Assembly (NCBI GenBank): GCA_040218145.1
Contig: JAVJQK010000109.1
Location: 62,001-126,000 of the forward strand
Direction: 5' to 3'
Source of the DNA: Sandaracinaceae bacterium
GTDB taxonomy: Bacteria; Myxococcota_A; Polyangia; Polyangiales; Sandaracinaceae
DNA length: 64,000 nt
In this document: positions 16,457-29,918 of the stretch, piece by piece
How the letters are laid out: each line of letters opens with the position of its first letter
How positions within the stretch are numbered: the first letter of the stretch is position 1
Notes under the pieces: generated by a model
The model's input: only the letters and a program-made list of their open reading frames with translations
The model's database searches: none
Told to the model about the DNA's origin: nothing
Translations under genes and position numbers: made by a program

Positions 16457-19400
16457 ATGACCACCTCTTCGCCCCGTCCGAACGCACCCGGTGAGGCCGA
16501 CGCTGGCGCTGCGGAAGCGCAGATCGAAGCCCTGCGTCAGGAGCTCGAAGCCACCCCGGACCGGGGGCGCCAGGCCGTCATCCAGTACGAGATCGGGCAC
16601 CTCACGCAGCACGCGCTGGCCAACGAAGCCCAGGCCGTGCGCGAATACCTCGGGGCCTACAACCTCGATCCCCAGTTCCGCCCGCCGCTGATCGCGCTCG
16701 TGTCGATCTTCGAGCGGCGCCGCTCGAGCAAGAACCTCCTGCGCCTCTACGACGCCGAGGCGCGCAGCGCGACGACCCCCCGTGAGGCAGCGTCGGCGCT
16801 CGCGGACCGCGCGATCCTGACCGCGGACCAGATGGGCGACGTCGAGGAGGCGCGCGGCCTGCTCGAGGCGGCCTTCGAGCAGGCCGGCGAGGCGGGCGAC
16901 CTGGCCCTCCTGCTCGAGCAGCAGCGCCTGGTGGACGGAGACATCGAGGGCGCGCTCGAGGTCATCGAGGCGCGCGCCGGCCTCGTGCACGACCCGGTCC
17001 TGGCCACCCTGCTGCGGCTCGAGGTCGCGCGCGCCCGAGAAGAGGCGGGAGACCTCGAGGGGGCGCTCTCGATGCTCCGATCGGCGGTCACGACCCCGGC
17101 CGCCCGCTGGCGGGTCCTGACCCAGCTCGAGCGCGTGGCCCGCAAGGCCGAGCGCTACCCCGAGCTCATCGTCGCGCTCGAGGGCCGCGCGAAGCTGGCC
17201 GTGGCCGAGGCCAAGGGTGAGGACGCGGGCCAGGCGTCCGGCGCGTTCAGCGTGCAGCGCTTCGCGGACCAGGCGCGCGCGGCCTCGACGGCCGCGGCCC
17301 TCTACCGCGAGGCGGGCCGGCTCCGCCTGCAGAAGCTCAACGACGCGCCTGGCGCCCTGCGGGACTACGACGAGGCGACGCAGCTGCGTGAGGCGGACCC
17401 GCTCCTCGGCTACGAGCGGATGCTCGCCCAGGAGCTCGCGGGCGACCTGGAGGGCGCGGCGGCCGAGGCCGAGCGGCTGCTGGGCGCCGGCCTCGAGGGG
17501 CCGCCCGCGGCCGCGCTGCGCTTCCGCCTCGCGGAGCGCGCCCAGGCCGCGGGAGACGGCGAGGCCGCGCTGACCGAGATGCGCCGCGCGCTCGAGGCCG
17601 ACCCGAGCTCCGCGGTCGCCGCGGCCATGCTCGACGATCTGCTGCGGCTCGGCGGCGACCACGCGAGCGCGGCCGAGCAGCTCGAGACCCGCGCCGCGGA
17701 CGTGACCGGAGCGGCGCGCGCGCAGCGCCTCTGGGAGGCGGCCCACCTCGCGGCCCATCACCTCCAGGACGCGGAGAAGGCGCGCGCGCTCTACGCCGCC
17801 GCGGCCGAGGCCGCCCGCGCGGGCGAAGACGAGCGCGCGCCGGTGGACGCGATCCTGCGCGAGGGGCTCGCGGCCGCGATGAGCCTCGGCGACGCCGACG
17901 GCGCCGTGCGCCGCATCCGCGCGCTGCTGTCGACGGAGCTCGAAGACGAAGAGCGCAGCGCGATGCTCCGCGACCTGCACGAGCTGACGCGCGTCGTGCT
18001 CGAGGACGACGCGGCGGCAGACGCCGTCCTGGCGCAGGCGCTCGACACCCCGGCCGCGTCGGCGTGGGCGCCCGACCTCGCGCGGCTGCTCGCGGCGGCC
18101 CGCGGCGACGATGCCCTGCTCGCCAAGGCGCACCACCTGCTGGCGGACCGGGCCGCGGACGCGGAGACGGCGGCGGCGCATCTCTGCGCGGCGGCCCGCG
18201 CGGAGGCGCGCGCGTCGGACGAGGACGCGGCGGTCGAGTCCCTGCGCGCGGCGCTCGAGCGCTCGCCCACGCATCCCTACGCGGTCGCGTTGCTCGAGGA
18301 GGTGCTGCGCGCGCGCGGCGACGCGGACGAGCTGGTCCGACTCCTGCGCGAGGCGGCCGAGAAGGCCGACGCGCCGCGCGCGGCCGAGACGCGCCTCCTC
18401 CTCGCGGGGGCGGCCGCGGAGGCCGCCGATCGGTTCGACGACGCGGTCGCCGCCTACGAAGAGGCAGCCCAGCGCGACCCGACGTCGCTCGCCCCGCTGC
18501 TCGCCAAGCGCCGCCTCGCCGAGGCGCGTAAGTCGGAGGGGAACGAGCCGGATCCGAAGATGCTGCTCGAGGCGCTCGAGGCGCTGAGCCAGCGCGAGAT
18601 CGCGGCGGGAGAGCCGGGCCGCCATACGCTCGCGCTGGGCGAGCACTACGATCTGTTCAGCGGCCAGCCCGAGCGCGCCGAGGCGCCTCTCCGCACCGCG
18701 CTGGAGAGCGAAGCGGTCGGGCTGCACGCGGCCGTCGACCTCGCCCTCCTGCCGGCGACCGAGGGCGACCGCGAGGCACGCCTGATGGGCCTCTCCCACA
18801 TCCTCGGCCACACCCAGGACGAGGCGCGGCGCGGCATCCTCCGCGAAGCCGCGGGCGTGGCGCTCGACGGCGGCCTGGACCTGACGCGCGCCGAGGCGCT
18901 GCTGGACGAGCTCTCCGAGCGCGCCCCTGGGGATCGCTGGAGCCCGCTCGGCCGGCTGCAGCTGCTGGCCACGGACGACTCGCGCGCGACGGAGCGCGCC
19001 GACGCCTGGCTCGCGCTGGGCCGCGCGACCGACGACCCGGAGGTGGCGGCGGAGCTGCTGCTGCACGCGCTCCGAGGGCAGGTCTTCGGCGCCGGCGAGG
19101 ACGCGCTCGACGACGCCGTCATCCTCGCGCACGAGGTGCTCGGCGAGGCCCCCGACTCGCTGGCGGCCGCGGTCGCGATGGACGAAGCCCTCGGCGCGGG
19201 AGACGACCCTGAGGGGCGCGCGCGCGCGCTCGGGACCTGGACCACGCAGGCGGAGGGCAGCGCGACGCTCCGTTCGGCCCACGGCCGCGCGCTCGCCGCC
19301 GCGGGGCGACCGAGTGAAGCGCTCGGGGTCCTGCTCAAGATCGCGGCCAGCGAGCCGGACGATCTCGCGAGCTGGGAGGCCATCCGCGTCGCAGCGCGCG

Positions 19401-21271
19401 AGTGCGAGGCCTGGGAGCCGCTCGTCGAGGCGTGCGACCGACTCGCGCACCTCGTGACGGACGAGGAGCTGAAGATGCTCCTCCTCGAGGAGTCGGCGGC
19501 CACGCTGATGGACGCGCTCGGCCAGGACGCCCGGGCCGAGCGCCGCCTCCGCCGGATCCTCGCGATCGACGCGCGGCGCCCCATCGCCTACGGGCGCCTC
19601 CACGACCTGCTCGCCGAGCGCGACGACGACGCCGGCCTGCTCGAGCTGGTCAGCAACCGCATCGAGCTGGTCGACGATCCGAGCGAGCTCGTGAAGCTCT
19701 TCTACGAGCAGGCACGTTTGCTGCGCTCGGTCGGCCTGCGCGAAGAGGCGCTCTCCGCCCTCGACAACCTGCTGATGCTCGACGGCGCGCACGTCGGCGG
19801 CCTCGCGCTGCTCGTCGAGCTCCAGGTGCAGCAGGAGAACTTCGGCGGGGCGGTGCACGCGCTCCAGACCCTGGCCGCCGCGCCCGACGTGCCGGGGAGC
19901 CAGCGGCGGATCGCGCGCCTCGGAGCCGCGGACTTCCTCGAGAAGAAGCTCGACGACGCCGCGGGGGCGCTCGCCGAGCTCAGCGCCCTGCACGAGATCG
20001 GCCTCGCGGACCGCGAGATCTACGAGCGCATGGCCGACGTGGCGGTGAAGATCGAGCGGCACGACGACGCGGTCGAGGCGCTGGCCCACGCGGTCGAGCA
20101 CGCCAGCTCCGCCAAGGCCGTGGCCCGGCTCGAGCGTCGCGCAGGCGCCATTCACGCCGAGGAGCGCCTGGACCGGGACGCGGCCGTCGCGGCGTACGAG
20201 CGGGCGCTCGCGGCGTCCCCGACCGATCTCGAGGCATGCGAGGCGCTCGCCGCGCTGCTCGACGGCCCGGAGCGCGCCGCGGCGAGCCATCGCTTCGAGC
20301 AGGCGCTGCGGCCGCTGCTGGAGGACGACCCGACCGAGCCCCAGATCCTCCGCAAGCTGCGGCGCGCCGCGGCCTGGCGTGACGACCGCGGGTTCGACGC
20401 GGCGCTCCTCTCGGCGCTCGTCGTCCTCGGTGAAGCGGACGACGCGGAGCGGGAGGCGCTCGCCGCCCACACCCGGACAGGCCCGCCACGCGGCGCCCTG
20501 AGCGCCGAGGAGATCGACGCCATCCGCGTGCGCGGCGACGGCGGCGACGTCCTTCAGCTCGCGCGCGCGCTGTCCGAGAGCGCGGCCGAGATGGATGGCC
20601 TCGATCCGTCCGGGTACGGGCTCGGCCGCGGGGATCTGGTCAAGGGCGACGACCCGCTGAAGTCGGAGCTGGCCGCGCTCGGCGGCGTCTTCGGGCTCCC
20701 GGCCGCGGAGCTCTACCGCGGCGGCGACGACCCGGCGCGGCTGGACGTGCTGCCGCACTACAAGGGTCACCTCAGCTGGGTCGGAGGCGGGCAAGTGCAG
20801 CCGCCGCTCAGCCCGGATCGACGCTACACCTTCGGCTACCTCGCGGCCGGCGTCCGGATGGGCGTCGCGCCGTTCGTCCGCCGGGGCGCGGAGGGCGCGG
20901 CCCTCGCCGTGTTCGCCGCCGCCGCCGCCGCCGAGGCGCCGCTCGCCGCGGGCGCGGGGCGCGACCTCGAGGAGGCGACGCGGCGCATGTACAAGGCGAT
21001 GCCGCGTCGCGTGAGGAAGTCGCTGCCCGAGAAGCTCGCCTCCCTGGAGGGTGGACAGCGGGTGGACGAGTGGGCGCGACGCGTGGTCCGTACCGCGCAG
21101 CGCGCCGGCCTGCTCGCTTCTGATGACCTGCACGTCTCGATGACGCGCGTGCTCGGTCGACCGCCTTCCCGCGAAGCGGTCGTCTCGTCGATCGACGCAC
21201 GCGACCTGCTCCTGTTTTGGCTATCGCCGGTCGCCCTCGGGCTCCGGAAGAAGCTGGGCCTCGCCGAATGA
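16457..21271 (+). CDS. Giant TPR protein 1 (1604 aa)
   Basis: Very long Ala/Glu/Leu-rich protein made of tetratricopeptide-type helix pairs over about residues 20-1390, with no signal peptide or membrane segment, so presumably a cytoplasmic scaffold. Typical units read ALRDYDEATQLREADPLLGY and ALERSPTHPYAVALLEEVLR. The last 200 residues are a different domain (LPAAELYRGGDDPARLDVLP, LSPDRRYTFGYLAAGVRMG, SLPEKLASLEGGQRVDEWAR, LLLFWLSPVALGL) that aligns with the end of the next gene. ATG 16457 is preferred over an in-frame GTG 24 codons upstream that would overlap the promoter. The stop overlaps the next ATG. Function unknown; a scaffold or regulator working with its neighbour is an inference. 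Confidence 0.75.
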   Translation: MTTSSPRPNAPGEADAGAAEAQIEALRQELEATPDRGRQAVIQYEIGHLTQHALANEAQAVREYLGAYNLDPQFRPPLIALVSIFERRRSSKNLLRLYDAEARSATTPREAASALADRAILTADQMGDVEEARGLLEAAFEQAGEAGDLALLLEQQRLVDGDIEGALEVIEARAGLVHDPVLATLLRLEVARAREEAGDLEGALSMLRSAVTTPAARWRVLTQLERVARKAERYPELIVALEGRAKLAVAEAKGEDAGQASGAFSVQRFADQARAASTAAALYREAGRLRLQKLNDAPGALRDYDEATQLREADPLLGYERMLAQELAGDLEGAAAEAERLLGAGLEGPPAAALRFRLAERAQAAGDGEAALTEMRRALEADPSSAVAAAMLDDLLRLGGDHASAAEQLETRAADVTGAARAQRLWEAAHLAAHHLQDAEKARALYAAAAEAARAGEDERAPVDAILREGLAAAMSLGDADGAVRRIRALLSTELEDEERSAMLRDLHELTRVVLEDDAAADAVLAQALDTPAASAWAPDLARLLAAARGDDALLAKAHHLLADRAADAETAAAHLCAAARAEARASDEDAAVESLRAALERSPTHPYAVALLEEVLRARGDADELVRLLREAAEKADAPRAAETRLLLAGAAAEAADRFDDAVAAYEEAAQRDPTSLAPLLAKRRLAEARKSEGNEPDPKMLLEALEALSQREIAAGEPGRHTLALGEHYDLFSGQPERAEAPLRTALESEAVGLHAAVDLALLPATEGDREARLMGLSHILGHTQDEARRGILREAAGVALDGGLDLTRAEALLDELSERAPGDRWSPLGRLQLLATDDSRATERADAWLALGRATDDPEVAAELLLHALRGQVFGAGEDALDDAVILAHEVLGEAPDSLAAAVAMDEALGAGDDPEGRARALGTWTTQAEGSATLRSAHGRALAAAGRPSEALGVLLKIAASEPDDLASWEAIRVAARECEAWEPLVEACDRLAHLVTDEELKMLLLEESAATLMDALGQDARAERRLRRILAIDARRPIAYGRLHDLLAERDDDAGLLELVSNRIELVDDPSELVKLFYEQARLLRSVGLREEALSALDNLLMLDGAHVGGLALLVELQVQQENFGGAVHALQTLAAAPDVPGSQRRIARLGAADFLEKKLDDAAGALAELSALHEIGLADREIYERMADVAVKIERHDDAVEALAHAVEHASSAKAVARLERRAGAIHAEERLDRDAAVAAYERALAASPTDLEACEALAALLDGPERAAASHRFEQALRPLLEDDPTEPQILRKLRRAAAWRDDRGFDAALLSALVVLGEADDAEREALAAHTRTGPPRGALSAEEIDAIRVRGDGGDVLQLARALSESAAEMDGLDPSGYGLGRGDLVKGDDPLKSELAALGGVFGLPAAELYRGGDDPARLDVLPHYKGHLSWVGGGQVQPPLSPDRRYTFGYLAAGVRMGVAPFVRRGAEGAALAVFAAAAAAEAPLAAGAGRDLEEATRRMYKAMPRRVRKSLPEKLASLEGGQRVDEWARRVVRTAQRAGLLASDDLHVSMTRVLGRPPSREAVVSSIDARDLLLFWLSPVALGLRKKLGLAE

Positions 21272-24200
21272 GTGAGAACGACGACAAGTCTCCCCCCGAG
21301 GAGATCGATCTCGAAGAGCTCGAGTGGGATGACGCGCTCGCCGACTGGGAGACCGAGCTGGACGACAGCGCGGAGGCCAAGGCGCCGCCCCTGCCCCAGG
21401 GCAGCGGGGAGCCGTCCCGCGCCCTCTACCGGCCGCCTTCCCCGGACGAGAAGTTCGCGCAGCGCGCCCCGCGCGCGCCGGTGGCGCCCAAGCCCTCCCC
21501 CAAGCCCGTCGATCTCGCGGACTTCCCCTCCTTCGACGAGGAGGACGACGAGGAGATGGAGTCGACGCGGATCGCCTCGATCCCGCAGGAGCTGATCAAC
21601 TCGCTGGTCGAGAAGAGCGACGAGGCGCGCGGCTCCATGCCGACGAAGCCGCCGCCGCCCCTGCCCACCTCCGGCCGCAAGCCCGGCCCGGGCGCGTCCG
21701 CACCCGACGCGAGCGCGGCGAAGCCGGCCCCGTCCAAGCCCGCGAAGGTCGCCCCGCCGGTCGACCTCGACCTCGACGGGCTGCTCGAGGGGCTCGACCA
21801 GGAGACGCGCGCGTACCCCGACGCGGTGCGCGCCACGCCGGCTCCGCGGCGCCCGTCGACCCCGGCTCCGGAGCGGCCGCTCGGCGCGAGCGAAGCCGAG
21901 GCAGACTTCTTCGGGAGCGCGCCGCCGCCGCCGGCCACGCCCGAGGAGGCCTTCTTCGGAGAGGCGACCCTGGACGCCGACGCGGGCGAACACCGCTCGA
22001 AGGCAGCGGACGAGACGTTCGACCCGTTCGCCCCCGCCGACGAGGCGCCCGGCGCGCAGGCCCCCGCCGACGAAGGGGTGGTCAGCAGCTTCGGCGACGA
22101 CGCAGGAGCCTCCGACGCCGGCGACGACGCAGACGAGGACGCCCGCGACGATGCGTTCACGCCGCCCCGAACCCGCATGGCCGATCTCTCCGGCCTCGCG
22201 AAGGCGTCGGCCGAGGATCGAGCCGAGGCGGACGACACCTCCGACGCCGATCGAGGCTCACGACCCACCCGCCCCCCGGTCCCTGGCCTTCCGGGCGCCG
22301 AGGCCGGGAGCAAGCCCGCGTTCCGCCCCCCGTCGATCCCGAAGCCGTCGCTCCTGAAGCCTCGCGCGCCGAAGCTGGGCATCCCGAAACCCGGCGGCGC
22401 GGCCAAGGGCCGGATCCCGAAGCCGGGCATCCCCAAACCTGGCATCCCCAGGCCCGGCATCCCCAAGCCCGGCGGCATCCCGCGCCCCGGCGCCGGCTTG
22501 CCCAAGCCCGCCCTGCCGAGGCCGGGCATCCCCAAGCCGAAGCTGCCGCGCCCGGGTGCGTCGCTGCCCAAGCCTCCGTTCCCGATCGGCGCGCCCGGCG
22601 ACGAAGCCGAGGAGGCGTCGGACGCGGAGGCGCTCGACGCCGGGGACCGCCCCACGCCCGTCCCTGGAGGTCCCGCCGCGGCGGAGCCCACCGCCAGAGA
22701 GGCCGGCGATCGCCCGACGCCGGTCCCGGGCGAGCCCTCGCCCGAGGCGCCCGCCGAGGAGGCCGCCGAAGCCGTCGAGATCGGTGACCGCCCGACTCCC
22801 GTGCCGAGCTCCGAGGCGCCGGCCAAGCCGGCCAAGCCGGCGACGCCGACCGGCCCGCGCGGCCCCGCCTTCGCGTCGGCCGAGCTCGACCTGGGCCTGG
22901 CGGAGCTCGACGCGCTGCTCGAGTCCGAGGTCCCCCCGCCGCCGCTCCCCACCGAGGACGCCCCGGTCGAGGCGGCGCCGCGGGAGCCGGCCATCGACGA
23001 CGCGCCCGAGCTGGCCGTCGAGTCCGAGGACGAGCCCCCCTCCGACGCGGAGGCCTCCGAAGACGCGCTCGTGGCCGAGGTCGAAGCCCCGGCCGACGGG
23101 GAGCGCGACGAGGACGGAGACGAGCCCGAGCTCGCCGTCGCCGAGGAAGACGCCGAGGAAGACGAGGAAGACGAGCTCGTCATCGAGGCGGGCGAGGTCG
23201 ACGACGAGGACTGGGCGGAGATCGCCGAGACCGCCGAGATCGACGACGAGGAGTGGGCCGAGATCGAGGCCGCCGAGGCGGCCCAGGAAGAGGTCGTCGT
23301 CGAGGCCGAGCCCGACCGGGGCGCCCTCGCCGCGCGGAGATCCGTTCGGTCGCGCAAGCCGCGTCAAGAGAGCTTCCCCATGGTCGGGAGCGGCCCGGAC
23401 GCGCTGCGCCTGCGGGTCCGTCTCCTGCGTGACCTCGCCGAGAGCAAGCAGGGCGCGGTGCGGGCGCGGCTCCTCGTGGGCGCGGCCGAGCTCGCCGAGC
23501 AGCTCGGAGAGGTGGAAGACGCCCGCGCCGCGTACCGCGCCGCCCTCGAGGCCGATCCCCAGGACGTCGTCGCCACGCGCGCGCTCCGGCGGGACGCGGT
23601 GCAGCGGGGCGCGTGGGAGGAGCTGGCGACGCTCTTCGAGGCGGAGGCGAAGCTCCCCCTCGGCGCCTGGGAGCGCGCGCACGCGTGGACGGGGCTCGCC
23701 GAGCTGCGGCTGGGTCGGCTGAAGGACGTGGCCGGCGCCGAGGCGGCGGCGCGCCTCGCGCTGGAGGCCCAGCCGGCCTCGGTCACGGCGGCGCTCCTGC
23801 TCGCCGAAGCCCGCTGGCGGCTCGGCAAGACGGCCGAGGCGGTGGAGGCCTTCGCCGGCGCGCGCGACGTCTGGGACGACCCCGACGCGCGCGCCGCGCT
23901 CGCGGTCGAAGAGGCGCGGGTCAAGGAGCGGGCCGGCGACGAGGCCGGCGCGAGAGAGATCTTCGCCTGGGCCAACGAGGTGGACCCCGAGGCGCTCGAC
24001 GCGTGGTTCGGACGCGCGCGGACCGGCAGCCGCGCGGACGCCGATCCGCGCGGCACGGTGGAGGCCCTCGCCACCCTCGCCGCCTACTGCGGCGGCGCGC
24101 TCGGCGAGGCCGTGCTCACCCGGGCGAGTCGAGTCGCGACCCGGCTCGCGCGCGACCCGCAGCTCGGCGTGCGGCTCCTCGGACAGGCGACGGGCGTCGT

Positions 24201-27200
24201 GCCGCTGCAGGCCCGCGCCGAGGCCGCCGCCGCGACCGGCGACGCGGAGCTCGAGCAGCGCGCCCTCGAGGCGTGGGCGGGCGCGGCGGGCGGGACCGAT
24301 CGCGCCCTCGCCCTCGTGCGCATGGCGGAGGTCAAGGCGGCGGCGGGAGACCTCGACGGAGCGGACGCGGCGCTGCGCGACGCGGCGCTCGCCGACGGGA
24401 GCCTCGGCACCATCCGGGTCGTGCGCGAGGTCATCGCGCGCCGCAGCGGCGACGTGTCGCGCCTCGTGGACGCCACGCAGGCGGGCGGCGCGCTGGCGTC
24501 CGCGGCGCGGGTGGCCCGCGATCGCAGCGCGGTGAGCCGCGAGCGAGAGCTGCTCGAGCAGGCCAGCCAGGACGGCGTGGCCCTCGTCAGCGTCGACGTG
24601 CTGACCCTGGACGCGGCCGCCAACGAGAACGATGACGCGGCCCTCGACCTGTCGCTGCGACGTCAGGCGGATCGCGTCCCGCCCGAGCAGCGCGCCGGCT
24701 CGCTCCTGGCGCTGACCGATCGCGCGATCGCGCGTCAGGATCTGACGGCGGCGGAGGCGCTGCTCGAGGAGGCGCGCCAGGCCGCGGCGGGCGATCCCCT
24801 CGCGCTCCGGCCGCTCGGTCGCCTCGCGCTCCAGCGAGACCCGACCGTCGCGGCGGCGCTCTGGATGGAGGAAGCGTCGGTGTCGGACGGGACGCGCTCG
24901 GCGTTCTGCGCGACGCAGGCTGGGCGGATCCTGGCCGCCTCGGGCGGCGACGCGCTGGGCGCGTTCCGCCGCGCTCTCGACGCGGTGGCGGGCTACGGGC
25001 CCGCCGCGTGGGCGCTCAAGCCGCACGCGATCGACATGGGCGACCCGCTGACGCTCGGCGAAGCACACGAGCAGCTCGCGGAGGGCGCGGTCGATCCGAC
25101 CGACGCTGCAAGTCACCTCGTCCGGGGCGCGCTCCTGAGGGCCGACGCCGATCCCTCGGGCGCCGGCGCCCTCCTCGACCGGGCGCGCCAGCTCGCCCCC
25201 GGGGACGCGGTGCTGCAGAGCCTCCTGATGCGCCTCGCGGGCTCGACCTCGCCCGCCGAGCGCGCGGCGATGCTGAAGGAGTCGGCCGCGTCCGCGCCCG
25301 CAGAGCTCGCGCGCGTCTATCGCCTCCAGGCCGCCGCCGCCTTCGAGGACGCGGGAGACCCGGCCGCCGCCGCCGCGGAGCTCACCGCGGTCGCTGCGGA
25401 GCACGAGGACGACCCGATCGTACGCGTCGCCCTCGACCGCGTGCAGATCGCCTCGGGCGCGGTCGCGCGGGTGGCGGAGCGACGCTTCGCGGCCGTCAAG
25501 GAGGCCGAGGGCGACGACGCGCGCGTCTTCGCGCTGGAGCAGCTCGCCGAGCTGGACCTGCTCGAGCGAAAGGACCCGGCGAGCGCTGTCCTGTCGCTCC
25601 AGTCCATCCTCGAGACCGCGCCGGGCCACCTGCCGAGCCTTCGCGCGCTCTACCGCTACTTCGCGGAGCAGGGTCGGCTCGAGGATCTCGGGCGCGTGGT
25701 CGAGGCCCTCGCCCTGCACGTCCAGGAGGGTGCCGACGTCAGCGCCCACCTCCGGCTCGCGCGCCGGCTCGCGCACGCCGACCCCGAGGCGGCCGGCGAG
25801 TCCGCGGACGAGATCCTCGTCAGCGCGGGCGCGCGCGCCGAGCTCGACCTCTGGCTGGCCCCGCGCGTCCTCGCCGCGGCCCGCGAGCGCGGCGACATCA
25901 AGCTCGCCCGGAGCGCGGCGACCGCCCTGGCCGCCGCCCTCAGCTCCGCCGACGAGCGGGCCTCCGCCCGCGTGCGCGCCGCGGAGCTGACCAAGGACTT
26001 GGAGACCAAGGAGGCGACGCTCCGCGAGGCGGTGCAGGCGTCTCCACAACACCCCACGGCGGCCGAGGCGCTCGCGCGGCACTGCGTGGAGCGCGGCGAC
26101 GACGCGGCCGCGGCGGAGGCGCTCGAGGCGGCCGCGAAGGCCACCGAGGTGCGCGTGCGCGCCGCGGCGCTCCTCGACGAGGCCGCGAAGCTCTGGGAAG
26201 GCCTGAACGACTCCAAGCGCGCGCGCGCCGCGCTCGAGCTCGCCAGCGAGCGCGACGTGACGCACGGGGACATCTTCGCGCGGCTGCAGAGCATGCTCCA
26301 GGTCGACGGCGACCAGGAGCGCCTCGCGGACCTCTATGGCGCGCGCCTGGCCGCAGGCGGCGAGCCCGACGAGCTGGTCTCGCTCTACCTCGAACAAGCC
26401 TCGTTGCGCACTGCGATCTCCGACTCGGCGGGCGCCAAGGCGTCCCTCCGATCGGCGCTCGGCATCGAGCCCGAGCGCATCGAGGCGCTGCGCGACCTGG
26501 CGCAGCTCTGCCTCGACGACGAGGACTGGCGCGGCGCGGCCGAGGTGCTCATCCGCATCGCGCGCATCCGCAAGGAGCGCGAGGAGCTGCGCTGGGTGTT
26601 CTTCACCCTCGGTGACATCTACGACCAGCACATGCCCGATCCGCGGCGCGCCGAGGCGGCGTTCCGCCGGGTGCTCAAGCTCCTCCCCCGCGACGTCCCC
26701 GCGATGGAGCGCCTCGCGAAGCTCTACGAGCGCGAGGGGCAGCTGGAGAACGCCGCGCAGATGCTCGCGCAGCTCGCGCAGCTCGACGTCGACCCCGACA
26801 GCAACCGCGGCCACCGCCTGCAGCTCGCCGCCGTGCACGAGCGGCTCGGAGACGCGCGCAAGGCGGAGCAGGTGCTCGAGGAGGCGCGGAAGAACGCGCC
26901 CACGGATCTCGGCGTGCTCAAGGGGCTCGCCGACTTCTACGAGCGACAGGGCGCCTCGAACGCGCTCGCGATGCACCTCGGGCGCGCGGTGAACGACTAC
27001 CGACACGCGCTCGAGGCGGACCTCGCGGACGCCGCGGCGTGGCCCGGGCTGGTCGAGGTGCTGCAGTGGCGTGAGCAGACGGACGCGGCGGCGTGCGCGG
27101 CCTCGGCGGCGCAGGCCATCGGCGTGATGGACGTCGAGATGTCCAAGCTGGTCGACGCCCGCGGCGCCGCGCAGGGCGTCGGGCAGGCGGCGGCGAAGTC

Positions 27201-27996
27201 GGATCTCGACGAGCTGCTGGCGCCTTCCGCCCTCAACGCGCCCACCCGCGCGGTGTTCAAGCTCGCGGGTGACGCGCTCGAGAAGGCGCTGCCCTTCGAC
27301 GTCGCGGCGTACCGCGCCCAGAAGGTCGACGGCCGCGACACGAGCATTCGCCCGCTCGCCAACGAGGTCAGCCGCTGGTTCGGCTTCGGCACCTACGAGC
27401 TCTACGTCACGAGCGCGGCGCCGCGCGTCTGCGTCCCCGTGCACAGCAACCCGTGCACGCTGTTGATCGGCAGCGAGCTGATCGGCATCACCGACGACCG
27501 CGAGAAGCTCTTCGTGCTCGCGCGCGCGTTCCGCATCGCCAAGGCGCAGCTCTCCGTCGTCGTGCGCGCGCAGCCGCACGAGGTCAACGCGCTCCTGGGC
27601 GGCCTCGTGCAGAGCTACGACCCGCACCACAGCCCCGCTGGCGTGGACCCCGCGCACGTCGCGGAGGCCGCCCGTCGCGTCACCAAACACATCAACCGGA
27701 AGGCGCGCGACGAGCTGGGTCCCCTGGTCTACGAGATGGCGGGTCGACCGGGCCACGATCCCTCGGGTCTGGCGATGGCCGCGTCCGAGTGGGGCAACCG
27801 GGTCGGGCTGCTGGCCAGCGGCTCGGCGCCCGCGGGCATCAGCGCGCTGGCCAAGCTGAGCGGCGAGCGCGAGCTGCCGACGGACACGGCCTCGCGGCTG
27901 GCCCTCGTCACGCGCTTCCCGGAGGCCTCGGCGCTGCTGGAGTTCGCCATCAGCGACGCGCACTTCGAGGCGCGGCGCCGCTCCGGGATCGGGTGA
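21268..27996 (+). CDS. Giant TPR protein 2 (2242 aa) with Pro-rich linker
   Basis: The N-terminal 700 residues are low-complexity: acidic (EEIDLEELEWDDALADWETE), then Pro/Lys repeats of the type GIPKPG/GIPRPG, then repeats of GDRPTPVPG and a long Glu/Asp/Ala stretch. Residues about 710-2000 are TPR-type helices (AAYRAALEADPQDVVATRAL, AAFRRVLKLLPRDVPAMERL). A C-terminal domain of about 230 residues (DTSIRPLANEVSRWFGFG, LIGSELIGITDDREKLFVLA, HINRKARDELGPLVYEMAG) is homologous to the end of protein 1 and resembles an M48 peptidase fold that has lost HExxH. ATG 21268 overlaps the preceding stop. The next gene starts three bases after its stop. Likely forms a complex with protein 1. Confidence 0.75.
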   Translation: MSENDDKSPPEEIDLEELEWDDALADWETELDDSAEAKAPPLPQGSGEPSRALYRPPSPDEKFAQRAPRAPVAPKPSPKPVDLADFPSFDEEDDEEMESTRIASIPQELINSLVEKSDEARGSMPTKPPPPLPTSGRKPGPGASAPDASAAKPAPSKPAKVAPPVDLDLDGLLEGLDQETRAYPDAVRATPAPRRPSTPAPERPLGASEAEADFFGSAPPPPATPEEAFFGEATLDADAGEHRSKAADETFDPFAPADEAPGAQAPADEGVVSSFGDDAGASDAGDDADEDARDDAFTPPRTRMADLSGLAKASAEDRAEADDTSDADRGSRPTRPPVPGLPGAEAGSKPAFRPPSIPKPSLLKPRAPKLGIPKPGGAAKGRIPKPGIPKPGIPRPGIPKPGGIPRPGAGLPKPALPRPGIPKPKLPRPGASLPKPPFPIGAPGDEAEEASDAEALDAGDRPTPVPGGPAAAEPTAREAGDRPTPVPGEPSPEAPAEEAAEAVEIGDRPTPVPSSEAPAKPAKPATPTGPRGPAFASAELDLGLAELDALLESEVPPPPLPTEDAPVEAAPREPAIDDAPELAVESEDEPPSDAEASEDALVAEVEAPADGERDEDGDEPELAVAEEDAEEDEEDELVIEAGEVDDEDWAEIAETAEIDDEEWAEIEAAEAAQEEVVVEAEPDRGALAARRSVRSRKPRQESFPMVGSGPDALRLRVRLLRDLAESKQGAVRARLLVGAAELAEQLGEVEDARAAYRAALEADPQDVVATRALRRDAVQRGAWEELATLFEAEAKLPLGAWERAHAWTGLAELRLGRLKDVAGAEAAARLALEAQPASVTAALLLAEARWRLGKTAEAVEAFAGARDVWDDPDARAALAVEEARVKERAGDEAGAREIFAWANEVDPEALDAWFGRARTGSRADADPRGTVEALATLAAYCGGALGEAVLTRASRVATRLARDPQLGVRLLGQATGVVPLQARAEAAAATGDAELEQRALEAWAGAAGGTDRALALVRMAEVKAAAGDLDGADAALRDAALADGSLGTIRVVREVIARRSGDVSRLVDATQAGGALASAARVARDRSAVSRERELLEQASQDGVALVSVDVLTLDAAANENDDAALDLSLRRQADRVPPEQRAGSLLALTDRAIARQDLTAAEALLEEARQAAAGDPLALRPLGRLALQRDPTVAAALWMEEASVSDGTRSAFCATQAGRILAASGGDALGAFRRALDAVAGYGPAAWALKPHAIDMGDPLTLGEAHEQLAEGAVDPTDAASHLVRGALLRADADPSGAGALLDRARQLAPGDAVLQSLLMRLAGSTSPAERAAMLKESAASAPAELARVYRLQAAAAFEDAGDPAAAAAELTAVAAEHEDDPIVRVALDRVQIASGAVARVAERRFAAVKEAEGDDARVFALEQLAELDLLERKDPASAVLSLQSILETAPGHLPSLRALYRYFAEQGRLEDLGRVVEALALHVQEGADVSAHLRLARRLAHADPEAAGESADEILVSAGARAELDLWLAPRVLAAARERGDIKLARSAATALAAALSSADERASARVRAAELTKDLETKEATLREAVQASPQHPTAAEALARHCVERGDDAAAAEALEAAAKATEVRVRAAALLDEAAKLWEGLNDSKRARAALELASERDVTHGDIFARLQSMLQVDGDQERLADLYGARLAAGGEPDELVSLYLEQASLRTAISDSAGAKASLRSALGIEPERIEALRDLAQLCLDDEDWRGAAEVLIRIARIRKEREELRWVFFTLGDIYDQHMPDPRRAEAAFRRVLKLLPRDVPAMERLAKLYEREGQLENAAQMLAQLAQLDVDPDSNRGHRLQLAAVHERLGDARKAEQVLEEARKNAPTDLGVLKGLADFYERQGASNALAMHLGRAVNDYRHALEADLADAAAWPGLVEVLQWREQTDAAACAASAAQAIGVMDVEMSKLVDARGAAQGVGQAAAKSDLDELLAPSALNAPTRAVFKLAGDALEKALPFDVAAYRAQKVDGRDTSIRPLANEVSRWFGFGTYELYVTSAAPRVCVPVHSNPCTLLIGSELIGITDDREKLFVLARAFRIAKAQLSVVVRAQPHEVNALLGGLVQSYDPHHSPAGVDPAHVAEAARRVTKHINRKARDELGPLVYEMAGRPGHDPSGLAMAASEWGNRVGLLASGSAPAGISALAKLSGERELPTDTASRLALVTRFPEASALLEFAISDAHFEARRRSGIG
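22371..22590 (+). repeat. Pro/Lys repeat (GIPKPG-type) in giant TPR protein 2
   Basis: Imperfect tandem 15-18-base units encode GIPKPG, GIPRPG, GLPKPA, KLPRPG and variants, about ten copies. The minus-strand complement also stays open because of the repeat bias; that is not a gene. The peptide should be an extended, basic polyproline-like linker between the acidic N-terminus and the TPR array. Confidence 0.8.
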
Positions 27997-27999
27997 GGC

Positions 28000-28596
28000 A
28001 TGCGCATCGGTCTCCTCGGACCCTCGGACGGCGATGCCGAGACGCTGCGCGAGGCCATCGAGTTCCTGCTCGACGACATGGAGGTCGACCAGGCCGTCTA
28101 CCTCGGCCTCGACGAGGAGGTCCTCGACGCGGTGATCCGTGACTGGGTGGGCGGCGATCCCTCCGACGAGGCGTTCCTGACCCAGGCGGTGGAGGCCGCG
28201 ATGGGCGGCACGCCCGAGCACATCGAGGCGCTGCTGGAGCAACGCGAGCTGGTCGAGCGGCTGGCGAAGGTCCGGAAGCTGCCCGAGCCGCCCGCGCGCG
28301 CGGTGGAGATGCTCGCCGACCGCATCCTCCTCTTCGTCAACGACAAGTCCATCCTCGACGAAGAGGACATCGCCAACGCGAACCTCGTCGCCTACGGCAG
28401 GAGCAGCTCCGCCGAGCTCCGCCGCTTCGGCCCCCGCTACTTCCTGACCCCCGGACCGCTGTCGAAGGAGCAGGTGGCCGTCGTCGAGCTCGAGCCCGAC
28501 GGGCAGGTGTCGCTCGCCCTCTTCGACATCAGCGGCGTCCCGGTGTGGCGCGAGACGATGGCCCGCCGCACGAGCAAGGTGAAGCTGGCCCGATGA
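28000..28596 (+). CDS. Degenerate YfcE/MJ0936-like phosphodiesterase-fold protein
   Basis: 198 aa. The start (MRIGLLGPSDGDAETLREAI) has the shape of YfcE-type calcineurin-like phosphodiesterases, whose first motif is normally SDTHGN, but the metal-binding D and H are replaced. The C-terminal part (LVAYGRSSSAELRRFGPRYF, LTPGPLSKEQVAVVELEPDG) parallels the family's GHTHxP...NPGSxG...vleid end, again without the His pair. I read it as a catalytically dead member; alternatively an unrelated alpha/beta protein. It lies three bases after giant TPR protein 2 and overlaps nadD by four bases, in the middle of the operon. Role unknown. Confidence 0.55.
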   Translation: MRIGLLGPSDGDAETLREAIEFLLDDMEVDQAVYLGLDEEVLDAVIRDWVGGDPSDEAFLTQAVEAAMGGTPEHIEALLEQRELVERLAKVRKLPEPPARAVEMLADRILLFVNDKSILDEEDIANANLVAYGRSSSAELRRFGPRYFLTPGPLSKEQVAVVELEPDGQVSLALFDISGVPVWRETMARRTSKVKLAR

Positions 28597-29135
28597 CCAC
28601 GCTCGCCGTGTTCGGAGGCAGCTTCGATCCCCCGCACGTGGGGCACGTGCTCGCCGCCGCGTGGGTCCTCAGCACGGGGGAGGTCGACGGGCTCGTCGTC
28701 GTGCCTTGCGGCAGCCACGCCTTCGGCAAGGCGCTGACACCCTTCCCTCACCGCCTCCGCATGGCGGAGCTCGCCTTCGCGCCGATCCGCGGCGCCCACG
28801 TCAGCGACATCGAGGCGCGCCGCGTGGGCCCCAGCTACACCGTCGACACGCTCGAGGCGCTGCGAACAAAGCAAGTCAAACTGCGGCTGGTCATCGGATC
28901 GGATCTGGTCGACGAGATCCCGCGATGGCACGAGGGCCACCGCGTGCCTTCGCTCGCGCCGCCGCTCGTGGTGGGGCGCGGCGGGCACGGCGACGGGAGC
29001 GAGGACATCTCCATGCCCGCCGTCAGCAGCACCGAGGTGCGGCGCCGGCTGCGCGCGGGTGAGTCGGTGGAGGCGCTGGTTCCGCGCGCGGTGCGTCGCT
29101 ACGTGACGCGCCATGGGCTCTACCGTGGCGCCTGA
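28593..29135 (+). CDS. nadD: Nicotinate-nucleotide adenylyltransferase
   Basis: 180-aa NAD biosynthesis enzyme that joins nicotinate mononucleotide with ATP to make deamido-NAD. The nucleotidyltransferase signature GGSFDPPHVGHVLAA is at residues 7-21, RLVIGSDLVDEIPRWHEGH gives the substrate loop, and VSSTEVRRRLRAGE is the C-terminal ATP motif. Slightly shorter than usual, but all motifs are present. ATG 28593 overlaps the previous stop (ATGA). In many bacteria nadD sits with rsfS or obgE; here it is inside a TPR operon, which is unusual. Confidence 0.9.
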   Translation: MTTLAVFGGSFDPPHVGHVLAAAWVLSTGEVDGLVVVPCGSHAFGKALTPFPHRLRMAELAFAPIRGAHVSDIEARRVGPSYTVDTLEALRTKQVKLRLVIGSDLVDEIPRWHEGHRVPSLAPPLVVGRGGHGDGSEDISMPAVSSTEVRRRLRAGESVEALVPRAVRRYVTRHGLYRGA

Positions 29136-29150
29136 GCACGGGAGACGCGG

Positions 29151-29918
29151 ATGCGAGTGACGATCGTCGGGCGGGGCCGCGTGGGCCGAGGGCTGGCGAG
29201 CGCCGCGAAGCGCGCCGACCTCGACGTGAAGCTCGTACGCGGAGGCACCGAGGGGCGCGTGCGCGGCGCGCTGGTCGTGCTGGCGGTGCCGGATCCGGTC
29301 GTGGCCGACGTGGCCGCGAAGCTCGAGGTGAGAGGCGCGCTCGTGCACTGCTCGGGGAGCCTCGGCGTGGAGGTCCTGCGAGGGCGCGCGCCCTCCGTCG
29401 GCGTGATGCACCCCCTCGTCTCCTTCGCGGACCCCGAGCGCCCACCGAGCCTGCGCGACGCGACCTTCGTCCTCGACGGGGACGACGAGGCCGTCAAGCG
29501 CGCAAGGAAACTGGCCCGCCGCCTCGGGGCCCGCCCGGTGCGCGCGCAGGTCCACGGCCCCGCCTATCACGCGGCCGCGGCGCTCGGGGCGAACGGCGCG
29601 GCCGCGCTCGCCGCGGTGGCGGTCCGCGTGCTCGAAGCGCAGGGAATGACCCGGCGGGACGCCGAGCGCGCGATGGGGGCCTTGCTCCGCACGGTGGGTG
29701 AGAACGTCGAGACGGTGGGCGTCCCGACCGCCCTGAGCGGGCCCGTGATCCGGGGTGACGCCGGCACGGTGCGGCGACATCGCGAGGCGCTCGAGGCCCT
29801 CGATCCGGGCGCGCGGCGCGCGTACGACGCGGTCGGCCCCGCCATCCTGGAGTGCGCACGCGAGGCTGGCCTCGACCCCGAGCGCGCGGCCGAGGTGGCG
29901 CGCGCCCTGACCGAGTGA
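29151..29918 (+). CDS. Rossmann-like DUF2520 protein
   Basis: 255 aa. The N-terminal NAD(P)-binding Rossmann fold has VGRGRVGRGLASAAKRA. The rest matches the Rossmann-like/DUF2520 family: ALVHCSGSLGVEVL, VMHPLVSFADPERPPSLRDA, and HGPAYHAAAALGANGAAALA, where the family's conserved His and Ala/Asn are visible, followed by an all-helical domain (ALSGPVIRGDAGTVRRHREA). Relatives are annotated as F420- or NADP-dependent oxidoreductases of unknown substrate, sometimes next to pantothenate genes. It starts 15 bases after nadD and probably ends this operon; the convergent kinase gene ends 12 bases away. Confidence 0.82.
   Translation: MRVTIVGRGRVGRGLASAAKRADLDVKLVRGGTEGRVRGALVVLAVPDPVVADVAAKLEVRGALVHCSGSLGVEVLRGRAPSVGVMHPLVSFADPERPPSLRDATFVLDGDDEAVKRARKLARRLGARPVRAQVHGPAYHAAAALGANGAAALAAVAVRVLEAQGMTRRDAERAMGALLRTVGENVETVGVPTALSGPVIRGDAGTVRRHREALEALDPGARRAYDAVGPAILECAREAGLDPERAAEVARALTE

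Follow-up and report, generated by a model that had tools for sequence, protein, structure and literature searches.

The proteins of two adjacent giant genes, p1 and p2, in a genome of the Sandaracinaceae end in one and the same domain, and the comparison of their sequence families leaves no doubt on this point. It is well supported that the domain descends from M48 metallopeptidases and that its zinc site is dead, so that the domain seems to be a former peptidase that has taken on a structural role. An earlier look at this DNA, hereafter the first-pass annotation, had already remarked on the likeness of the two tails; the extent of the family, its link with GltI of the gliding machinery and the presence of a second dead enzyme, p3, in the same gene block are new.

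The p1-p2 gene pair

The window, i.e. the whole stretch of 64,000 nucleotides that was analysed, is part of an 11.06-Mb genome in 148 contigs, and its near relatives are Sandaracinaceae and other Myxococcota MAGs. With a narrower alignment of the domain as the query, 13 related loci were collected. The genes p1 and p2 lie in tandem, the ATG of p2 at 21268 overlapping the stop codon of p1 as ATGA (Table 1). A four-nucleotide overlap of this kind, ATGA or GTGA, is present at all six loci examined (the window and five relatives), which is a sign of coupled translation.

The TPR nature of p2 is established by a match to TPR_19 of Pfam (E 2.1e-14, 54 bits for a curated cut-off of 25). For p1, the best Pfam TPR match has 20.4 bits, below the cut-off of 27.8, and a TPR-type NCBIfam model matches with E 6.4e-13, also below its own cut-off. 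Hydropathy revealed no signal peptide and no transmembrane segment in p1, p2 or p3, and from their sequences p1 and p2 are probably cytoplasmic proteins. The first 680 or so residues of p2 (21268-23310), in which Pro, Ala and acidic residues abound and repeats of the PKPGIPKPG type occur, are poorly conserved across relatives.

Table 1. Genes, domains and motifs of the p1-p2 block, in positions of the window
Feature	Coordinates	Strand	Description	Basis
p1	16457..21271	+	1604 aa, repeat (TPR-like) protein with C-terminal pseudo-M48 domain	ORF
T1	20519..21268	+	pseudo-M48 domain of p1	hhalign; AF2 (pLDDT 94.3); VIA-align matches to M48/M56
LAAGV	20840..20854	+	site of the former HExxH in p1	family alignment in the M48 hhalign register
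RAGLLAS	21101..21121	+	in p1, same M48 remnant as SEWGNRVGLLAS in p2	hhalign; family alignment
p2	21268..27996	+	2242-aa TPR protein with C-terminal pseudo-M48 domain	ORF
T2	27214..27990	+	pseudo-M48 domain of p2	hhalign; AF2 (pLDDT 94.0); VIA-align matches to M48/M56
RAFRI	27523..27537	+	site of the former HExxH in p2	hhalign register; counts in 98 members
SEWGNRVGLLAS	27784..27819	+	in p2, what is left of M48 'E-I-T-C-D-R-A-G-L-L-C'; the Glu ligand is gone, the Arg retained in 98 % of family members	
p3	28000..28596	+	198-aa degenerate calcineurin-like phosphoesterase directly behind p2	hhalign; synteny
Nucleotidyltransferase (CTP_transf_like, NadD-like)	28593..29135	+	fourth gene of the block	Pfam E 1.5e-13; synteny
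DUF2520/Rossmann-like protein	29151..29918	+	fifth gene of the block	Pfam E 7.6e-27; synteny

One domain at the end of both proteins

Taken as a pair, T1 and T2 make a weak case for a shared tail, since blastp aligns them with an E-value of 0.015 and 26 % identity over 170 residues. The family alignments (29 homologues of T2, A1, and 30 of T1, A2) match each other with an hhalign probability of 99.5 % and an E-value of 4.4e-23 over 246 columns that reach the C-terminus, at an identity of about 16-17 %. The blocks lined up in the first-pass annotation, ELY with ELY, PDRRYTFGYLAAGVRMG with DDREKLFVLARAFRIAK and RAGLLAS with RVGLLAS, are all in register in this alignment, and its wording, diverged paralogues or a fused domain, agrees with the match between the tail families. 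It had put the shared part at about 200 residues; the sharing stands, and the length is slightly greater, about 250 residues.

Matches to T2 and T1 occur in 128 and 129, respectively, of 144 genomes of the order, some of these matches being paralogues. In a tree of 109 domain sequences, T1 and T2 form separate groups (support 0.999 and 1.0), and the T2 group clusters with other paralogues, not with the tails of p1. As the two groups are well supported and not each other's nearest relatives, the tree speaks for an old paralogy rather than a recent tandem duplication. On this phylogenetic evidence, p1 and p2 are ancient paralogues, each kept as an orthologous group of its own.

Origin of the domain from M48 peptidases

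The relation to M48 is visible only by profiles and fold, as no single member of the family reaches Pfam M48 in hmmscan, even at E 1. The search of all members against Pfam returned just scattered weak, unrelated matches, and a sequence-profile search of the PDB chance matches only. The profile search of the organism's own genome yielded nine clear members and a tenth, weakest match (E 0.008) on contig C83, which sits at 'AEITCDRAGLLCCGDLEAA' in a genuine M48 peptidase (PF01435, E 9.5e-28). As a query, this peptidase finds its own orthologues first and then, in many genomes, the ends of family proteins of 3,400-4,000 residues, with E-values of about 1e-4 to 1e-3 and on the same motif; hmmsearch with an M48 model confirms the matches to giant proteins, up to E 2e-6.

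Sequence homology of the tails to M48 proteins is established by hhalign of the family profile (98 sequences) against a single-domain Myxococcota subfamily of M48 (97.0 %, E 9.2e-11, 183 columns). A profile comparison with M48, the kind of check that the first-pass annotation had proposed, reveals the relation that Pfam M48 passes over with single sequences. The placing of DDRE..FVLA where HExxH should be also proved right: FVLARAFRIA falls exactly on the HExxH helix, FlvaRal on fVIGHEcGH, and ta.RagLLa.GDL on TcDRAGLLC..D. The controls remain at or below 0.3 % when reversed or column-shuffled, and unrelated families at or below 0.8 %, and against a mixed set of M48 proteins the match is weaker, in register, with E-values of 1.2e-5 to 7.5e-5.

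The tails share with M48 peptidases (HtpX, BepA, ZMPSTE24/Ste24p) the fold core, the order of its elements and, in register, the motifs 'DRAGLL.C.DL' and 'LRxFAxSxxYR'. The closest M48 proteins are of the single-domain Myxococcota form with HExxH and 'RRAEITCDRAGLLCC.D', such as that encoded on C83 (locus L158). Unlike these enzymes, the tails are fused to long TPR arms and do not stand alone, and HExxH, the catalytic Glu and the third ligand are lost. Behind the intact single-domain M48 gene of L158 lies a gene that, from its start (FNHGKTTFVNALLG), resembles those of dynamin-like GTPases; L161 has the same pair.

AlphaFold2, given alignments of 20 rows, returned confident models of both tails (pTM 0.92 each; pLDDT in Table 1), with a helix, three strands, a helix matching the HExxH helix and a long helix that carries RVGLLAS or RAGLLAS. 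Plain Foldseek found no match under E 0.7 and 0.56, respectively, for the two models among solved structures, and its top rows include M48/M56 chains at non-significant values. The candidates were re-aligned with VIA-align 2. For T2, the top 15 rows are all M48/M56-type metallopeptidases, followed by M1 enzymes; they comprise BlaR1 (Z 8.6, 161 residues, 4.5 Å), 3c37 (Z 8.3, 172 residues, 4.7 Å), BepA (Z 8.1-8.2, the row of Z 8.2 with 152 residues at 5.1 Å), HtpX (Z 8.1, 94 residues, 2.5 Å) and ZMPSTE24 and Ste24p (Z about 8). For T1, M48/M56 peptidases and MATCAP fill the first nine rows, and the best Z is 6.0. Z-scores of about 8 (T2) and 6 (T1) are moderate, in a range that the tool warns may reflect a common arrangement, and the case for the fold hence rests on the consistency of the lists together with the sequence profiles. 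A single Z of this size can be chance; lists as uniform as these would be harder to explain in that manner. The models thus predict an M48-type fold core in T1 and T2, and predicted structures, the other check that had been proposed, bring up M48/M56 peptidases as the best VIA-align partners of both tails.

Loss of the zinc site

None of 98 family members has a His at either His position of HExxH. The position of the first His is occupied by Arg in 69 % of them and that of the catalytic Glu mostly by Ala (44 %); in RAFRI of p2, the two are Arg and Ala, and the second His is replaced by Ile. The Glu that serves as the third zinc ligand (E-x-x-x-D) is present in 13 % of 97 members and is Ser in p2. 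Conservation is found elsewhere, in the Arg after the third-ligand motif (98 %) and in the Ser and the Arg of 'FAxSxxxxxxR' (97 % each), and these conserved residues are those of the C-terminal part of M48. With HExxH, the catalytic Glu and the Glu of the third-ligand position gone, catalytic zinc binding and peptide cleavage should be absent. We name it a pseudo-M48 domain; it is not an M48 peptidase, because the motif that defines these enzymes was looked for and is absent. The suggestion of the first-pass annotation that it may be a dead zincin is thus supported by the predicted fold and its VIA-align partners, by the profile match to M48, by the matches between family and M48 in both search directions and by the missing histidines.

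Two HExxH strings turned out to be irrelevant to the active site: that of L027 is a chance occurrence, the active-site position having no His, and that of L129 lies 390 residues before the domain. We also considered M48 open frames of 700-960 codons as TPR-M48 fusions with an intact site, and their N-terminal part reads as run-through of the frame. No intact giant TPR-M48 fusion was found among long M48 open frames.

A family of giant proteins that includes GltI-like ones

The pseudo-M48 domain occurs in 145 of the 282 genomes that were sampled across the phylum, at the end of open frames or close to it, and most of these frames are long. The genome of the window has nine copies. One of these copies ends a GltI-like TPR protein of 3386 residues on contig C35 (L118, 491-10648, minus strand). 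The family profile matches this protein with an E-value of 2.6e-15 and other giant proteins with 1e-51 to 1e-83, so that a homologous C-terminal domain is common to p1, p2 and giant TPR proteins, including those at the position of GltI. The C35 gene adjoins two full-length matches, one to GltG (E 7.5e-135) and one to GltC (E 1.6e-82), each under its curated cut-off; further TPR proteins are encoded nearby. The search for GltJ gave partial matches only, none of which adjoins the giant gene. In 12 of 18 genomes tested, a giant protein is encoded only a few kb from the best GltG match; its link to the family is a match of the family profile, run on the giant protein itself, in seven of the 12 and a weaker match of the M48 query in the other five.

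GltI (AgmK) of Myxococcus xanthus is a TPR protein of 4132 residues without a signal peptide or transmembrane segment, its gene belongs to the same cluster as gltG, and the published domain table gives only TPRs (PMC3169522). It is described as a large intracellular scaffold that links the motor and the MreB track (PMC13104615). Judged by size, repeats and synteny, the TPR proteins of 3,400-4,000 residues beside gltG appear to be GltI, and we take them as such. GltI is a giant TPR protein without a signal peptide, as p2 and, with its TPR-like repeats, p1 are, and the GltI-position proteins of this and other genomes have the same end domain as p1 and p2. Nevertheless, p1 and p2 form their own groups in the tree, and we discarded them as orthologues of GltI, as with 1604 and 2242 residues they are shorter and they are not located beside glt genes; the C35 protein fits instead.

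An M48-type domain and TPRs also occur in one protein in BepA. In BepA the peptidase domain comes first, unlike in p1 and p2, where the domain is dead, last and probably cytoplasmic and the arm is far longer. BepA of Escherichia coli is an active periplasmic enzyme (PMC7950410, PMC8423444). In the openly licensed literature that we searched for dead M48 domains and giant myxobacterial TPR proteins, the domain is undescribed.

Other members of the family are found in diverse surroundings. About 10 kb from the GltI-like gene of C35 is a gene for an Arf-family small GTPase, MglA-like by eye (L266, 1792-2562, minus strand). Genes resembling murC and murD flank another paralogue that carries the domain (L115, L270 and L271, contig C31, 125500-143000). 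Two shorter members with open frames of 756 and 452 codons (L120 on C104 and L119, near a contig end, on C2) lack the giant arm or have just part of the domain.

A dead phosphoesterase behind p2

The gene order p1-p2-p3-nadD-DUF2520 is conserved, and at seven related loci p3 comes directly after p2. For p3, neither Pfam nor NCBIfam gave a credible match. In a comparison with 14 phosphoesterase references, it matched myxobacterial Metallophos_2 with an hhalign probability of 96.1 % and an E-value of 3.7e-9 over 161 columns (reversed control, 0.1 %), i.e. p3 is homologous over nearly its whole length to calcineurin-like phosphoesterases of the YfcE/MJ0936 type (PF12850). Unlike Metallophos_2 proteins, it has lost the metal-binding residues, the ligands of the D-x-H, GNH and GHxH motifs not being kept in the p3 alignment. 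In a phylum-wide sample of 140 genomes it was found in 16, all of its own order.

Discussion

We consider it probable that p1 and p2 are cytoplasmic TPR scaffolds with dead heads derived from a single-domain M48 peptidase. Each would combine a long solenoid arm of TPRs with a pseudopeptidase head at the C-terminus. By homology and predicted fold, this head stems from a single-domain metallopeptidase that the same genome still encodes, and it keeps the M48 core and the C-terminal motifs. The same head caps a family of giant Myxococcota TPR proteins that, by synteny, includes GltI beside gltG. We infer that p1 and p2 work as a scaffold pair with coupled translation, in which partner proteins are held by the TPR arms and by the dead heads, the head serving as a protein-binding or dimerisation module. 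As for p3, the dead phosphoesterase, it is a likely third subunit of their complex. By analogy with GltI, p1 and p2 would organise a membrane-associated machine or a polarity complex from the cytoplasmic side.

This account presupposes homology of the tails, their descent from M48 and the loss of their activity, each of which could be read otherwise. The tandem position of p1 and p2 would fit a recent duplication or even an artefact of assembly, and we regard this as virtually impossible, given tails that have diverged so far, supported T1 and T2 groups that each extend across the order, and the same tandem in independent assemblies. The tails might be homologous to each other and resemble M48 merely by a generic helix-sheet-helix arrangement, as the silence of Pfam M48, the non-significant E-values of plain Foldseek and the moderate Z of VIA-align would allow; this is very improbable in view of a profile match that has the active-site helix in register and far exceeds all controls, and of direct matches between the family and M48, obtained in both directions and on the same motif. 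It is also improbable, if somewhat less so, that the tail is still an enzyme with a new metal site or other chemistry in the old cleft, for instance by way of the Arg at the position of the first His and that after the third-ligand motif. Such an activity would be consistent with the frequent Arg at the first His position and with the kept residues R267 (98 %), S318 and R325 (97 % each) and G157 (83 %). These could equally be structural, however, the positions of the two His, the catalytic Glu and the third ligand vary widely, and no conserved cluster of His, Cys, Asp or Glu was found that could bind a metal or supply a nucleophile.

What the putative scaffolds serve is a separate matter. One possibility, which we put forward tentatively, is that p1, p2 and p3 together make up a dedicated cytoplasmic platform whose parts are all former enzymes, namely the pseudo-M48 heads on the TPR arms of p1 and p2 and the pseudo-phosphoesterase p3. 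It would be a sister to the platform of GltI, which couples the gliding motors to the cytoskeleton, and would serve a second, unrecognised envelope machine of the order. Alternatively, p1 and p2 may act for their metabolic neighbours and not in motility or polarity; they might, for instance, regulate cofactor metabolism. The conservation of the block with the nadD-like and DUF2520 genes in related loci speaks in favour of such a role, yet some genomes have p3 on another contig than p2 or at a great distance from it, and other paralogues are found in unrelated neighbourhoods, one of them in a gliding cluster; we deem it rather unlikely.

A widespread, multi-copy domain of Myxococcota that has no M48 assignment in Pfam or NCBIfam gains an origin, namely M48 minus the zinc site. 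A former peptidase became the head of giant TPR proteins which, as judged from synteny, include GltI, a core and poorly understood part of the gliding motor. GltI thereby offers a defined piece for testing by deletion, and several giant 'TPR proteins' would be explained together. The coupled pair p1/p2 and the dead phosphoesterase p3 are marked as a likely new complex.
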